This document shows positions 42,304-47,651 of a stretch of 64,000 bases of DNA, piece by piece. The stretch comes from Duganella sp. CF458. GTDB taxonomy: Bacteria > Pseudomonadota > Gammaproteobacteria > Burkholderiales > Burkholderiaceae_D. Location of the stretch: NCBI RefSeq assembly GCF_900113115.1, contig NZ_FOOF01000003.1, forward strand, positions 186,001-250,000. Direction: 5' to 3'. The translations under genes and the position numbers were made by a program. How positions within the stretch are numbered: position 1 is the first letter of the stretch; each line of letters begins with the position of its first letter. The notes under the pieces are model-generated. The model made no database searches, was not told the DNA's origin, and saw nothing but the letters and a program-made list of their open reading frames with translations.

Positions 42304-43554
42304 ATGAAACGAAGAATTTCGCTGTTAATCCTTGCGTTTTCCGCCATGACGGCCTTGGCGGGCCAGCCGGCCGCAAGCGGAGACGCGGTCGTCGCCCTGG
42401 CTGGCAACGGCTTTATCACCCGCACCGGTTCCGGCTCGACGGAAGTCATCAACAACAACGGCCTGGCCAACTGGACCAGCGCCAGCACCGTCACCAGCGT
42501 CTGGTTCCGCATGGCCGCCGCAGGCAATGCCACGCTGTCCTTGGACGCCAGCCTGGCCGGCAGCAAATCCAGCAAGATCCGCGTCACCGCCAACGGCACC
42601 CCGTTCGCCATCACCCTCACCAAGGGCAGGACCAAGACCTACGCGGTCGGCACCATCAACGTGCCTGCCGCCGGCTATGTGCGGGTTGACCTGCAGGGCA
42701 TCAGCAAGTCCGGCTCTTACTTCGGCGACGTGGCAGCGCTGCGCGTCAACACCAGCACAGCACTGGACTACGCCGACGACGCCGCCAACTACTACTGGTC
42801 GCGCCGCGGCCCGTCGGTCCACATGGGCTATGCGGTGCCGGCCAACACCGAGTACTTCTACAACGAGGTGACGGTGCCGCTCGGCGAAGACAAGATCGGC
42901 TCCTACTTCATGGCAAACGGATTCAACGGCGGCTACTTCGGCATCCAGGTCAATTCGCCGACCGAACGCCGCGTGCTGTTCTCGATCTGGGATGCCGACA
43001 GCGGCGCCAAGACCACGCTGGTGCGCAAGGGCCCGAACGTGGTCGACAACACGTTCGGCGGCGAAGGCACCGGCGGCCAGTCCTACCTGCTGTACAACTG
43101 GGTAGCCGGCAATACCTACCGCTTCATCACCCGCACGCTGCCGGACGGCGCAGGCGGGACCGACTTCTCAGCCTGGTTCTACGCCCCGGAAACCAACGCC
43201 TGGCGCTTCATCGCCACCTGGAAGCGCCCCGCCACCACCACTTACCATGCCGGCGTGTATTCCTTCCTGGAGAACTTCATCGACAGCAACGGCTACCTTG
43301 GCCGCAGCGTACAGTTCAACAACCAATGGGCACGCAGCACTGGCGGAGCCTGGAGCGAAGTGGTGAACGCACGCTTCACCGGCGATGCCACTGCTGCCAA
43401 CGCCCAGCGCATGGACTACGCGGGAGGCTTGCAGAACGGCAGATTCTATCTGCGCAATGGCGGTTTCTTTAGCCCGCACGTGCCGATCAAGCAGAACTTC
43501 GCTCGCCCGGCAACGGGACAGGCCCCAACGGTGGATGTCAGCACCCTGCCGTAG
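42304..43554 (+). CDS. Secreted DUF5077/DUF3472 domain protein
   Basis: This is a 416-residue exported protein: signal peptide (MKRRISLLILAFSAMTALA), then an N-terminal DUF5077-like beta domain (about 25-150) and a DUF3472-like domain (about 155-400). Recognisable blocks are YYWSRRGPSVHMGY, EYFYNEVTVPLGEDKIGSYFMANGFNGGYFGIQVNSPTERRVLFSIWD and YHAGVYSFLENF. These domains occur together in secreted carbohydrate-active or adhesion-type proteins. Enzymatic activity is not established. No overlap with the bufferin locus; 131 bases separate them. Confidence 0.78.
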   Translation: MKRRISLLILAFSAMTALAGQPAASGDAVVALAGNGFITRTGSGSTEVINNNGLANWTSASTVTSVWFRMAAAGNATLSLDASLAGSKSSKIRVTANGTPFAITLTKGRTKTYAVGTINVPAAGYVRVDLQGISKSGSYFGDVAALRVNTSTALDYADDAANYYWSRRGPSVHMGYAVPANTEYFYNEVTVPLGEDKIGSYFMANGFNGGYFGIQVNSPTERRVLFSIWDADSGAKTTLVRKGPNVVDNTFGGEGTGGQSYLLYNWVAGNTYRFITRTLPDGAGGTDFSAWFYAPETNAWRFIATWKRPATTTYHAGVYSFLENFIDSNGYLGRSVQFNNQWARSTGGAWSEVVNARFTGDATAANAQRMDYAGGLQNGRFYLRNGGFFSPHVPIKQNFARPATGQAPTVDVSTLP

Positions 43555-43570
43555 AGATTTTTGTATCCCA

Positions 43571-43597
43571 GTGTATCTGGCGCCATGCCAGATACAC
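43571..43597. repeat. Perfect 11-base inverted repeat between the DUF3472 gene and the bufferin locus
   Basis: GTGTATCTGGC and GCCAGATACAC form a perfect 11-base stem with a five-base loop (GCCAT). There is no T-tract after it, so it is either a weak terminator of the upstream gene, a dispersed palindrome, or an operator. It lies 89 bases before the first bufferin gene. Confidence 0.55.
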
Positions 43598-43685
43598 AAC
43601 TTGCGGAATCGCCCCACGCCACCGACACAAGCGATACACACTGCCCCCTTAATCTGGTCACACCTTAACCAAGGAGACCAAGATT

Positions 43686-43952
43686 ATGAAAACCACTTAC
43701 GCAGGACTCGCAGCCACCCTGGCTATCGCACTGTGCACCTCCGCCGCACATGCCGCAGAACCCAAGAAAGAAATGGAGAAGTGCTATGGCGTGGCGAAAG
43801 CCGGCCATAACGACTGCGCCGCAGGGCCGGGCACCTCGTGCGCCGCAACCTCCAAAGTCGACTACCAGGGCGACGCCTGGGTGCTGGTAGAAAAAGGCAC
43901 CTGCACCTCCATCAAAACCCCCAAGGGCTACGGCTCGCTGAAAGCGAAGTGA
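43686..43952 (+). CDS. bufA1: Bufferin-type RiPP precursor, DUF2282 family (BufA1-like)
   Basis: The 88-residue precursor has a Sec signal peptide (about 1-23, AHA-AEPKK). The mature part has four Cys at 33, 44, 52 and 73, in the DUF2282 pattern [22 protein letters not shown]...GTC. Family knowledge: in bufferins the central Cys are converted to thiooxazoles by a DUF692 enzyme and the exported product binds copper. AAGGAG lies nine bases before the ATG. Its stop overlaps the ATG of the hydrolase-like gene (TGATG). The assignment to copper is by family; no metal-specific regulator is seen. Confidence 0.88.
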
Positions 43953-44713
43953 TGAAGCGTGCCACTGCATCCGCGATCGCGCTGGCCGCAGGCCTTGCCG
44001 GCGCGGCACAGGCCGCCGCTCCAGCCGCCCAGCCGGCCGCGAAAAACATTGTGATCGTGCCGGGCGCCTTCATTGACGCCTCCAGCTGGCGCGTGGTGCA
44101 CGACACGCTGCGCCTGAAAGGCTTCAACGTCACCGTCGCCCAATTGCCGCACACCTCGCTCGATGACGACATTGCCATCGCCCGCAAGGCGATCTTCCAG
44201 CAGGTCGGCAACGTGGTCGTGGTCGGCAATGGGATCGGCGGCGCGGTGATGTCGAACGTGGCCACCGGCGACAAGGTGAAAGCACTGGTGTATGTCGCAG
44301 CCCTGATGCCTGAAGTCGGCGAAACCTCCCAGCAACTGCTGTCGTCGATGCCCGGCGCCGGCGAAGGCGTGAGGCCGGACCGCGCGGGCTTCCAGTACTA
44401 CGACGCCGCGCGTTTCCACGCCGACCTGGCAGCCGACCTGACGCCGAACCGCGTCGGCTTCATGGCGGCCTCGCAAGTCCCGGTCAGCAATGTGCTGATG
44501 GGGACGCCGAGCTGGTTCGCCACATGGCACCAGAAGCCGAGCTTCGGCATCGTCGCCACGCAAGACCGCCTGGTGAACCCGGAGCTGCAGCGCTGGATGT
44601 ACCAGCGCGCCGGCGCCAAGATCACCGAAATCGCAGCAAGCCATGCATTACAAGTATCGCAGCCGGAAGCGGTTGCGAAAGTCATCGAAGACGCTGCCCT
44701 TAGCGTCCTGTAA
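43952..44713 (+). CDS. Exported alpha/beta-hydrolase-fold protein lacking the nucleophile
   Basis: The 253-residue protein has a signal peptide ([21 protein letters not shown]). Its alpha/beta-hydrolase core is typical of the EstA/salicylate-hydrolase-like group, with NIVIVPGAFIDASSWRVVHDTL and KVKALVYVAALMP. The nucleophile elbow reads VGNGIGG (91-97), where the usual serine is Gly94. Candidate acid Asp205 (TQDRLVNP) and His231 (ASHAL) remain. It is therefore probably a non-catalytic binding protein or uses another mechanism. It begins inside the bufA1-like stop (TGATG), so it is part of the bufferin operon. Confidence 0.85.
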   Translation: MKRATASAIALAAGLAGAAQAAAPAAQPAAKNIVIVPGAFIDASSWRVVHDTLRLKGFNVTVAQLPHTSLDDDIAIARKAIFQQVGNVVVVGNGIGGAVMSNVATGDKVKALVYVAALMPEVGETSQQLLSSMPGAGEGVRPDRAGFQYYDAARFHADLAADLTPNRVGFMAASQVPVSNVLMGTPSWFATWHQKPSFGIVATQDRLVNPELQRWMYQRAGAKITEIAASHALQVSQPEAVAKVIEDAALSVL

Positions 44714-44741
44714 GTCCCACCCCAACCAAAGGAGATTCATC

Positions 44742-45011
44742 ATGAGCATCGCTACCAAAACCCGCGCTGGCCTGGCCGGCGCCGCCGCCCTGATCGCACT
44801 GGCTTCCCTGTCGGCACCAAGCTTCGCTGCGGAAAAAGCGAAGGAAGAACCAGGCCGCTGCTACGGCATCAACACCTGCAAGGGCACCAGCCTGTGCGCC
44901 ACCGCCAAGAACGACTGCAAAGGCCTGAACCAGTGCAAGGGCCAAGGCGTGCTGGTAAAAACCCCGACCGAGTGCAAGGCACTGGGCGGCACCCTGACCG
45001 AAGCCAAGTAA
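44742..45011 (+). CDS. bufA2: Bufferin-type RiPP precursor, BufA2-like
   Basis: The 89-residue precursor has a signal peptide (about 1-30, SFA-AEKAK). Six Cys (40, 46, 52, 59, 65, 78) lie in the mature part with spacing CYGINTC, KGTSLC, AKNDC, GLNQC and TEC. Repeats of CKG and K/N residues resemble the second bufferin family. AAAGGAG lies eight bases before the ATG at 44742. It lies 19 bases before the bufB start. A longer frame from 44643 covers the preceding gene and is not used. The family call is by motif and context. Confidence 0.8.
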   Translation: MSIATKTRAGLAGAAALIALASLSAPSFAAEKAKEEPGRCYGINTCKGTSLCATAKNDCKGLNQCKGQGVLVKTPTECKALGGTLTEAK

Positions 45012-45030
45012 GACTCGACGGAGACACACC

Positions 45031-45849
45031 ATGCACGCCCACCGCTTTGGCCTCGGCCTGCGCCGCGAACACTACCGCGATTTCCTCGAAGGCGACGTTG
45101 AGGTGGATTTCGTCGAAGTGATCTCGGAGAATTTCATGGTCGCCGGCGGCCAGCCACGCGACATCCTGCGCCGCGTGAGGGAAAAGCATCCCGTGGTGCT
45201 GCATGGTGTGTCGATGTCGCTCGGTTCAGCCGACGGCTTGCGGCGGGACTACCTGGCCCGCCTGTGCGCCCTGGTGGAGGAGATCGAGCCGATGTTCGTC
45301 TCCGATCACCTGAGCTGGTCGCGCATCGCCGGTTTCAACTCACACGACCTGCTGCCGCTGCCTTACACGCAGGAGGCGCTCGACATCATCTGCAACAACA
45401 TCGACCAGGCGCAGGAAGCGCTGGGACGCACCATGCTGGTCGAAAATCCCTCGAGCTACCTGGCATATGCCGAATCCACCATGACGGAATGGGAATTCAT
45501 CTCCGCAATGGCCAAGCGCACCGGCTGCGGCCTGCTGCTGGATGTGAACAACGTCTTCGTCAGCGCCAGCAACCATGGTTTCGACCCGCTCGACTTCCTG
45601 CGCGGCGTGCCCATGAACCGGGTATGCCAGATCCACCTCGCCGGCCATAGCCAGGGCGACGGCCTGCTGATCGACACCCACGACAGCGCCGTCAACGACG
45701 CTGTGTGGTCGCTGTACCAGCAGACGATCGCACGCTGCGGCCCCGTTGCCACCATGATCGAGCGCGATGGCGATATTCCGCCGCTGGCCGACCTGCTGGC
45801 CGAACTCGATACCGCACGCCGTCTCGCAACGCACAGGGAGGCAGCATGA
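45031..45849 (+). CDS. bufB: DUF692 multinuclear iron oxidative enzyme (BufB/MNIO)
   Basis: The 272-residue TIM-barrel protein has the DUF692 motifs in order: GLGLR (7-11), HGVSMSLG, SDHLSW, VENPSSYL, LLLDVNNVFVSA, HLAGH, DTHD and MIERDGDIP. The conserved His, Asp, Asn and Glu bind two or three irons. The family installs modifications on cysteines of precursor peptides, including thiooxazoles in bufferins. It is the only DUF692 gene in the operon although two precursors precede it. It overlaps bufC by four bases (ATGA). Assignment is firm; the substrate is inferred. Confidence 0.93.
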   Translation: MHAHRFGLGLRREHYRDFLEGDVEVDFVEVISENFMVAGGQPRDILRRVREKHPVVLHGVSMSLGSADGLRRDYLARLCALVEEIEPMFVSDHLSWSRIAGFNSHDLLPLPYTQEALDIICNNIDQAQEALGRTMLVENPSSYLAYAESTMTEWEFISAMAKRTGCGLLLDVNNVFVSASNHGFDPLDFLRGVPMNRVCQIHLAGHSQGDGLLIDTHDSAVNDAVWSLYQQTIARCGPVATMIERDGDIPPLADLLAELDTARRLATHREAA

Positions 45850-46586
45850 ACCTCGCCGACCTCCAGGGCGACTTCCGCGCCATGCTGGCGGCCTCCGCGC
45901 CAGTTGCCGGCGTGCCGGCCGGTCCGGGCCGCGCGGTGTACCAGAACAACTACCGCGCACAACTGGTCGGCTGCCTCGAAGAGAGCTACCCGCAACTGCG
46001 CACCTTCATCGGCGAAGAAGCCTTTTTGCACGCCGCAGCCACGCATATCAAGCGCAGCCCTCCCCACGCCTGGACGCTGGACGCCTACGCCGATGATTTC
46101 TGCGACACGCTGCAGGCCCTGTTTCCCGACAATCCCGATTTGCACGAACTGGCCTGGATCGAGCACGCGCTGAGCCAGGCGTTCATCGGCCCGGATGCCG
46201 CACCTGCCGCCGCCGAAGCACTGGCCGCCACCGACTGGGAGCACGCCCGCCTGACGCTGACGCCAACACTGCAATTGCGTATCGCCACCACCAACGCCGC
46301 CGACTTGTGGTTCGCCCTGCGCGACGGCAGCGGCAACGTCGAAGGCGAGATGCTTCCCGCGCCTGGCGGCCTGCTGGTGTGGCGCCGCGGCTTCGTTTCC
46401 TGCCTGCGCGCGCTGGACGCCATCGAATTCGCCGCGCTGACGCAAGTCCAGCGCGATGGCAGCTTCGCCGGCCTGTGCGCGCTGCTGGTAGAACGTGTCG
46501 GCGAAGAGCAAGGCATTGCCAGCGCCGGCGCCATGCTGGCCGACTGGCTTGGCAGTGAACTCATTACCGGAGTTGAAAATGAATGA
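45846..46586 (+). CDS. bufC: DUF2063 partner protein (BufC)
   Basis: This is the 246-residue partner of the DUF692 enzyme. The N-terminal DUF2063 domain (about 1-95) shows FRAMLAAS...VYQNNYRAQLVGCLEESYPQLRTFIGEEAFLHAAATHIKRSPP. A second domain follows (about 100-246). BufC-type proteins dock the precursor leader and the enzyme. The start at 45846 gives ATGA overlap with bufB. It overlaps the next gene by eight bases. Confidence 0.9.
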   Translation: MNLADLQGDFRAMLAASAPVAGVPAGPGRAVYQNNYRAQLVGCLEESYPQLRTFIGEEAFLHAAATHIKRSPPHAWTLDAYADDFCDTLQALFPDNPDLHELAWIEHALSQAFIGPDAAPAAAEALAATDWEHARLTLTPTLQLRIATTNAADLWFALRDGSGNVEGEMLPAPGGLLVWRRGFVSCLRALDAIEFAALTQVQRDGSFAGLCALLVERVGEEQGIASAGAMLADWLGSELITGVENE

Positions 46587-47145
46587 AACCCGCCGCCTGT
46601 TCCTGCTCTCCGCCCTCACCGGGCTGGCAGGAACCGCAAGCCTCGCCTTCGCCCCGGCGCTCGCCGGAGCCGCGCTGCCGATCCGCAGCGCCACCGAAGT
46701 CCTGCGCGCCGTAGCGGCCGCACAACCGGCGCTCAGCTACCACGCCGCCGGCCCGGACGATGGCCGCCCCATCGTGCTCGCCCGCAGCGCCGGTGAAGCC
46801 ATCGACCACTACACTGAGATCGCATCCCTATTGGCGGCGCAAGGCTACTTCGTTTTGCTGCCTACGTTACGCGAAGCGGATGCCGCCGTGCCCGGCCAGG
46901 ACCTGCTCGCGTTCATCGACAGCCTGCACATTCCGGAAGCCGTCTTCGTCGGCAGCGGCCATGGCGCGCAAGCAGCACGTGCCGCCGCCACGCATCGCCG
47001 CACGCGCGTCATCGGGCTCGTATTGTCAGACTCCGGCGCGGCGCCAACGTCCGTCCCCACCATCGGCCTCGCCGCCGGCGCCTCGGCGCAACAGATTGCC
47101 GACGCCGCCATCACACTCGCGCGCCAGGGTAAATGGCGCACCTGA
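46579..47145 (+). CDS. Short Tat-exported alpha/beta-hydrolase-like protein without nucleophile
   Basis: This 188-residue protein has a twin-arginine signal ([17 protein letters not shown]). The core resembles the N-terminal half of an alpha/beta-hydrolase ([36 protein letters not shown] and [17 protein letters not shown]). The elbow reads V124-G-S-G-H-G-A130, with Gly127 at the nucleophile position by alignment. The protein then ends at about residue 188 without the acid and His part of a complete fold, so it is truncated relative to the family. It starts eight bases inside bufC. No catalytic function is expected. Confidence 0.75.
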
Positions 47146-47168
47146 CACCTGACTACACGGAGACCAGC

Positions 47169-47651
47169 ATGAACACCAATTTCGCCCCATCCCCAGCCAC
47201 CGCACGTCCCGCCGCGGGCATCGTGTCAACCCGCATCGCAGCGCTTCACGCACTGGCCGCGCGCCTGCTGCCCGCCTCCGTGCAATTGCTGGCCGCCCGC
47301 TTGGGCATCGCCGCAATCTTCTTCCTCTCAGGCCGCACCAAAGTCGAGGGCTGGTTCACGCTGAAGGATTCGACAATCGACCTGTTCCGCTACGAATACA
47401 TGCTGCCGCTGATCCCGCCCGAGATTGCGGCGCCGATGGCCACCTTCGCCGAACACGCCCTGCCGCTGTTGCTGGTCGCAGGCCTGTTCACCCGCTTTGC
47501 CGCTCTCGGCCTACTGGCTATGACAGCCGTCATCGAAATCTTCGTCTACCCCCAAGCCTGGCCTACCCATCTGAGCTGGGCCGCCCTGCTGCTGCCCCTG
47601 ATCGCCCAAGGGGGTGGAAAACTCTCACTGGACCAGCTGTTGAAGCGATGA
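47169..47651 (+). CDS. DoxX family membrane protein
   Basis: This 160-residue inner-membrane protein has four hydrophobic segments (about 45-63, 90-112, 117-135, 138-152) and the DoxX blocks [23 protein letters not shown] and [36 protein letters not shown]. DoxX proteins occur in bufferin loci and may carry redox equivalents or quinones for thiol chemistry. The ATG at 47169 was chosen over an upstream alternative. It is the last gene of the operon. Confidence 0.88.

Follow-up and report, generated by a model that had tools for sequence, protein, structure and literature searches.

A putative dual-bufferin operon of Duganella with a single MNIO/DUF2063 pair and two hydrolase-like proteins that lack catalytic residues

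The locus described here raises the question whether precursors of two distinct families, both with signal peptides as leaders, can be accepted by one MNIO/DUF2063 complex, and what two hydrolase-like proteins encoded beside it may do. It lies in a stretch of 64,000 nucleotides of Duganella sp. CF458 (contig NZ_FOOF01000003.1, positions 186,001 to 250,000), referred to below as the window; the host is a soil bacterium with a genome of 6.34 Mb, which holds three MNIO genes in total. Judged from sequence comparisons, the locus is a putative dual-bufferin operon that encodes one MNIO/DUF2063 pair (BufB and BufC) together with H1 and H2, two hydrolase-like proteins that have export signals and are catalytically degenerate; we infer both the modification of the two peptides and the role of H1 and H2. 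As an earlier note on this DNA had described, seven closely spaced and partly overlapping genes occupy positions 43686-47651; all are on the + strand. The start codons of H1, bufA2, bufC, H2 and DoxX were selected by us within longer open frames, and export signals and signal peptides were assessed by eye:

bufA1, 43686..43952, + strand: Buf1 (DUF2282) precursor of 88 aa with a signal peptide and four core cysteines (PF10048, 88.8 bits, cut-off 22.4)
H1, 43952..44713, + strand: alpha/beta-hydrolase-fold protein with a Sec-like signal (PF12697 Abhydrolase_6, 66.1 bits, cut-off 26.3)
bufA2, 44742..45011, + strand: Buf2 precursor of 89 aa with a signal peptide and six cysteines (NF050166 Cu_RiPP_BufA2, 86.8 bits, cut-off 60)
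bufB, 45031..45849, + strand: predicted bufferin maturase of the MNIO (DUF692) family, on the Buf2 side of the tree (NF050167 MNIO_BufB, 383 bits, cut-off 310)
bufC, 45846..46586, + strand: DUF2063 partner protein (PF09836, 61.9 bits, cut-off 27.2)
H2, 46579..47145, + strand: mini form of 188 aa with a Tat-like signal, the N-terminal part of an alpha/beta hydrolase and a C-terminal KWRT, the catalytic half being deleted (from alignment to full-length relatives)
DoxX, 47169..47651, + strand: membrane protein (PF07681, 60.9 bits, cut-off 23.6)

Neighbouring genes overlap at three junctions, by 1 base at bufA1-H1, 4 at bufB-bufC and 8 at bufC-H2, and the remaining gaps measure 28, 19 and 23 bases. 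The locus combines what is expected of a Buf1 cluster, a DUF2282 precursor with a signal peptide and four conserved core cysteines, with the six-cysteine BufA2 precursor of a Buf2 cluster, and a BufB-type MNIO followed by a DUF2063 partner as well as a DoxX gene are present. The two precursors, the one DUF692 protein, the one DUF2063 protein and DoxX, all named in the earlier note, scored above their Pfam or NCBIfam cut-offs; against the more specific NCBIfam models, BufC was far below the cut-off for the partner NF050145 HvfC (22 against 142) and DoxX was below that for NF050144 HvfX (51.4 against 80). BufA1 has a fifth cysteine within its signal peptide. The precursors had been called unlike, and they do belong to two families, but the word is slightly strong because the BufA2 model gives a weak, sub-threshold match to BufA1 (18.9 bits, E 0.0013). 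The two families do not each have an MNIO of their own in the locus: there is one MNIO here, and the other two of the genome lie on different contigs.

We consider it likely that the operon makes two metal-binding ribosomally synthesised and post-translationally modified peptides (RiPPs), a Buf1 and a Buf2, with one modifying complex that would act on both. A single BufB/BufC pair adjoins both precursor genes, in line with the claim that they share one such pair, and the sequences suggest that this pair most likely serves both. We scanned 84,980 species genomes with a BufB alignment and used the best 80 loci, of which 8 came from genomes that our genus set also contains. Both precursors were found in 72 of these best 80 and H1 in 50, and none of the 80 contained two BufB in one stretch. 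MNIO genes were counted in 49 further genomes with mixed (Buf1 plus Buf2) loci (50 loci picked by us among 54 first chosen from the best 80; L057, L110, L115 and L121 were left out). Exactly one MNIO gene was found in ten of these 49 genomes, whose assembly completeness was not stated; four of the ten carry the H1 type of locus (L058, L060, L096 and L117). In G022, a genome of the six-genome subclade to which the window belongs, the only MNIO found besides BufB was divergent and reached none of the curated cut-offs (genus search, E up to 1e-20). The four core cysteines of A1 were present in 86/86 mixed loci and the six of A2 in the 79 with a CYG/CFG motif, an extra upstream cysteine being discounted in two rows; the other seven A2 are of a divergent sequence type and their cysteines were not counted, and locus L171, with two BufB, was excluded from the cysteine count.

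As a control we took an even class-wide sample, in which 97 of 369 genomes had Buf2 matches, 67 of them above the cut-off. Eighty loci with above-cut-off matches were fetched, leaving out the window's own, G401:C3 and G418:C18. No A1 was found in the stretch for 73 of the 80 loci, A1 lay within about 6 kb in seven, and H1 was found in none; BufB was missing from 16, in some owing to contig ends, by which several loci were cut. Since 73/80 loci show no A1, the two families usually occur apart, in keeping with the earlier note, according to which they usually have their own enzymes. One of the seven, L171, has a second B/C pair belonging to A1. Among the class-wide mixed loci without H1, L141 and L157 have the orders A2-A1-B-C-DX and A2-B-C-A1 (DX, DoxX), and L141 has a BufB that clusters with Buf1-only enzymes.

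By BufB, the nearest named relatives among the matches listed are Duganella, Massilia and Pseudoduganella, and the holders of H1 in the tree belong to Oxalobacteraceae, Burkholderiaceae, Pseudomonadaceae, Rhodanobacteraceae and one unplaced Burkholderiales. A divergent type of locus makes up 22 of the best 80, mostly from sphingomonads, and has A1-DoxX transcribed divergently from A2-B-C and no H1; in L101, the sole locus of this type run against Pfam, genes for an extracytoplasmic function (ECF) sigma factor and NrsF stand between the divergent halves.

In the genus, 74 genomes were surveyed for loci of the window's BufB clade (69-100% BufB identity, the window counted), and 14 such loci were found in 13 genomes. 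A1, A2, H1, one B, one C and DoxX were present in all 14, and H2 in 13. The genes stand in four orders: A1-H1-A2-B-C-H2-DX (6 loci), DX-A1-H1-A2-B-C-H2 (3), H1-A1-A2-B-C-H2-DX (1) and A1-C-DX-H1-A2-B(-H2) (4), the last with A1 next to C and A2 next to B, i.e. with the B/C pair divided between the precursors. That the content stayed constant despite the shuffled order argues for a functional set. One genome, G050, holds two mixed loci of unlike gene order, L014 and L018, the latter being the one in which the search found no H2. The BufB-tree and locus-content counts exclude genus loci that duplicate those of named genomes (L008-L010, L012-L015 and L017). Three near-identical outgroup loci (L224-L226) were also dropped. 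The ratio of nonsynonymous to synonymous substitutions (dN/dS), calculated as Nei-Gojobori pairwise means, which are rough and not independent of one another, was 0.106 for A1, 0.188 for A2, 0.130 for B, 0.174 for C, 0.137 for H1, 0.237 for DoxX and 0.266 for H2 in the window's six-genome subclade, i.e. the genes are under purifying selection.

A BufB tree, built by a quick method from 89 of 175 BufB rows, placed all 26 rows from H1 loci and 8 of 16 other mixed rows in one clade (support 99) that lies within the Buf2 side of the tree (99) and is separate from all but one of the 12 Buf1-only rows. As BufB stands among Buf2-type enzymes, it probably started with Buf2, and its range would have been extended once a Buf1 gene joined the locus. 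The residue following the catalytic ERD motif, position 247, is Gly in the window's BufB; we mapped it by motif to a specificity site which, according to the accessible text of PMC13097082, is linked to a Lys of the Buf2 substrate. Asp occupies this site in 61 of 68 Buf2-only enzymes outside the mixed clade, seven of the 61 having been missed by the pattern and counted as Asp from a by-eye reading of ERDD.

Several of our observations weigh against one pair serving both precursors. Of the 78 mixed-clade enzymes, 57 still have the Buf2-type Asp at the specificity site, and a general shift of this residue was rejected on that account. The mixed clade also contains six rows with A2 alone, one with A1 alone and one with neither, and the other eight of the 16 mixed rows lie elsewhere in the tree, meaning that mixed loci arose outside the clade too. 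Six of the ten single-MNIO genomes have the divergent type of locus without H1 (L083, L089, L092, L101, L108 and L125). In close relatives the A1 and A2 signal peptides of one locus are not specially alike: over 75 loci the global permutation test gave p = 0.0005, the within-cluster test gave p = 0.52 and 21 cluster representatives gave p = 0.05, and because the within-cluster permutation was not significant we dropped leader co-evolution as evidence. In six other genus loci dN/dS was higher throughout (H1 0.271, B 0.266, C 0.416, A1 0.463, A2 0.532). Finally, BufA1 could be modified in trans by another bufferin-type MNIO that the window genome encodes at C14, a fusion of BufB and BufC (349 bits, cut-off 310).

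This fusion bears on an alternative in which the labour is divided: BufB would modify BufA2 only, and BufA1 would be modified in trans by the C14 enzyme or stay unmodified and have another purpose. The position of BufB on the Buf2 side, with Buf2 as its likely ancestral substrate, agrees with such a division, as does the presence of the fusion in the same genome, beside a DUF2282 gene of its own, and PMC12452194 in its accessible text itself considers that precursors may stay unmodified or be modified from another locus. However, the ten genomes with one MNIO gene and G022, in which no other bufferin-type MNIO was found, would have no such helper, and yet A1 keeps its four cysteines in every mixed locus and accompanies the other genes in 14/14 genus loci despite their reshuffled order. 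We therefore regard divided labour as unlikely. A second DUF692 gene matched to one precursor had been named in advance as the finding that would overturn the shared-pair idea; a second bufferin-type gene does exist, but its adjacent DUF2282 gene and the single-MNIO genomes leave one BufB/BufC pair for both precursors as our preferred reading.

The third MNIO of the genome, L003 (G000:C32:243932-244654), is below all NCBIfam cut-offs (best BufB model 134.8 against 310) and is therefore termed divergent; for the same reason we rejected it as MbnB-like. It comes after an 84-aa peptide with the motif GGCNCGLTGFD and no Pfam match, and MNIO genes of likewise low identity occur in six other genus genomes.

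H1 and H2 had been presented as two exported hydrolase-like proteins. Their export signals (by eye) and their fold or ancestry agree with this, but their catalytic residues do not: H1 has Gly at the nucleophile position and H2 lacks nucleophile, acid and His, and since the catalytic motifs are missing, the two are probably not hydrolases here. The AlphaFold model of H1 shows an alpha/beta hydrolase fold (pLDDT 84, with residues 1-28 low), and Foldseek against the PDB retrieved hydroxynitrile lyase, SABP2 and PytH (1eb8, 1xkl and 5y57; best E 2.7e-15, TM-score about 0.75), which share the fold at an identity of only about 15-22%. In place of the G-x-S-x-G elbow of an active serine hydrolase the window's H1 has GNGIG, with Gly94 (codon 44231-44233) at the nucleophile position; Asp205 and His231 are kept. 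The H1 of bufferin loci form one clade of 55 rows (99/97), separate from 14 Ser-bearing genus paralogues; the truncated H1 of L053 was excluded from this tree. The nucleophile position is Ser in 36 of the 55, Gly in 13 and Asp in 6, and Ser in 14/14 paralogues. The tree requires five changes among Ser, Gly and Asp, and strong branches force at least two for Gly and two for Asp; by this reconstruction, H1 has lost its nucleophile Ser repeatedly (19/55). Asn166, Arg167 and Tyr217 are invariant in all 55 and mostly different in the paralogues.

Asp205 and His231 are likewise present in 55/55, i.e. in the 19 Ser-less and the 36 Ser-bearing H1 alike, and this leaves room for an H1 that is still an enzyme, one that would dispense with the Ser nucleophile and use an Asp-His dyad to act on a small ligand or on the mature peptides. 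General-base chemistry in Ser-independent oxygenases of the alpha/beta-hydrolase fold provides a model for it, and the low dN/dS of the Ser-less subclade H1 would fit as well. However, 49 columns are invariant among the Ser-less H1, so that the invariance of Asp205 and His231 is unremarkable alone and structural constraint could retain them, and Gly38, which we take to be near the oxyanion region, is gone in 3 of the 19. We find a dyad enzyme improbable.

For H2 of the window no Pfam or NCBIfam family reached its cut-off. Full-length H2 of relatives have a Tat-like signal and the motifs GYDWGG and GHN, and from the elbow motif we presume an epoxide-hydrolase-like family. Such an enzyme would have an Asp nucleophile, a cap domain and a C-terminal His; the window's H2 has GSGHGA at the elbow, and the cap and the His segment, both present in the full-length relatives, are absent. 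The catalytic portion is missing from H2 in the window subclade, and likewise in ten Pseudomonas loci and a few single lineages. In the H2 tree (34 rows; L120 and duplicates were omitted from the H2 counts) the mini form needs four changes, two of them forced by strong branches, and H2 has thus, judging by the tree, been cut down to a mini-protein repeatedly. A C-terminal WRT is found in 32/34 bufferin-locus H2, and among 30 fetched of the listed matches it was present in 5/5 from bufferin loci and in 0/25 other genus homologues. In eight Pseudomonas loci the mini-H2 has a dN/dS of 0.180, similar to BufC (0.166) and DoxX (0.165), and the H1 there, which keeps Ser, 0.074. A single case, Massilia polaris L053, has a broken H1, an H2 without the tail and no A2 found.

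Loss of catalytic residues in both proteins may also indicate that H1 and H2 are hitch-hiking or decaying and have no bufferin role; many loci yielded no H2, several lineages have a truncated one, and its dN/dS is the highest of the operon in the window subclade. Nevertheless, the Ser-less subclade H1 is as constrained as BufB (0.137 and 0.130), the values from the eight Pseudomonas loci are low for both proteins, the bufferin-locus H1 are one clade with invariant residues of its own, and the WRT end sets the H2 of bufferin loci apart from the other homologues fetched. Decay is thus very unlikely in our view. We propose, tentatively, that H1 and H2 are former hydrolases which now act as non-catalytic periplasmic partners of the dual-bufferin system, e.g. 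as chaperones or docking proteins receiving the mature peptides: catalysis would have been lost repeatedly and key surfaces kept (Asn166, Arg167 and Tyr217 in H1; the Tat-like signal, the N-terminal half and the WRT tail in H2), the mini-H2 being pared-down binding modules of more than one origin.

In the mechanism we envisage, A1 and A2, both with Sec-like signal peptides, would be presented by BufC to BufB, which, by analogy with characterised bufferins, would oxidise core cysteines to thiooxazoles. The modified products would then be exported and may chelate copper in the periplasm, where H1 and H2 would most likely act with the mature peptides by binding or handling rather than hydrolysis. 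DoxX presumably has a role in the operon, too.

The earlier note treated the hydrolase-like genes as additions to the known bufferin loci, which our results do not support: they are regular parts of this locus type and already belong to the Pseudomonas 'Pep4' of PMC8719888 (eLife 2021), in whose accessible text the content is given as DUF2282 peptide, DoxX, hydrolase, short peptide, DUF692, DUF2063 and hydrolase. The locus type is therefore not new, as this list has the same content as the window; its order, A1-DX-H1-A2-B-C-H2, was found here in Pseudomonas and differs from that of the window subclade. In the accessible part of that account the second peptide is not named as a bufferin and no catalytic loss, such as that of both hydrolase-like proteins of the window, and no function is given. 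The idea of dual substrates has also been voiced, since PMC12452194, as far as accessible, describes tandem precursor genes and allows for several related precursors being substrates of one MNIO pair. The Buf1 and Buf2 clusters treated there (models NF050166 and NF050167) share with our locus the precursor families, MNIO, DUF2063 partner, DoxX and signal peptides; additional conserved genes are said to occur in extremely low proportions, and a mixed Buf1/Buf2 locus or proteins like H1 and H2 are not described in that portion. The captophorins, or thiooxazole metallophores, of PMC13097082 resemble it in an MNIO and DUF2063 pair acting on cysteines and in the specificity site beside the catalytic Asp, but have one precursor per cluster in the text accessible, and the window's BufB has Gly where, by our motif mapping, Buf2-type enzymes have Asp. 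Our searches of the open literature, as far as its texts were accessible, found no mixed loci with H1 and H2 beyond the Pep4 list, and these published accounts appear not to cover the clade of mixed Buf1/Buf2 loci, its genomes with a single MNIO, or what became of H1 and H2.

As the gene set recurs in related bacteria, it offers a natural test of one enzyme on two substrates, and thereby a natural panel for the RiPP question raised at the outset; strains that carry the locus and have a single MNIO gene permit a clean genetic test. Bufferin loci can, moreover, carry export-signal proteins that drift from catalysis yet remain under selection, which suggests a further step after peptide export.

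Two features were noted 5' of bufA1:

Inverted repeat, 43572..43596, no strand assigned: TGTATCTGGC-N5-GCCAGATACA with 10-bp arms, identical in the window and in L048-L051
Block CACAAGCGATACACACTGCCCCC, 43626..43648, + strand: candidate promoter region, exact 5' of the operon in all six subclade genomes

The inverted repeat may be an operator or the terminator of the upstream gene. It has a single exact copy genome-wide and a looser pattern matched one further place, and the search for a regulon around it was dropped; no regulator was assigned to it. Among the 238 loci collected, block CACAAGCGATACACACTGCCCCC was matched in 20, every one a copy of the loci of the six subclade genomes, and the promoter scan gave no sigma-70-like site. 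Directly upstream, at window positions 42304-43554, lies a DUF3472/DUF5077 gene; five of the six loci in the subclade have it next to the operon.

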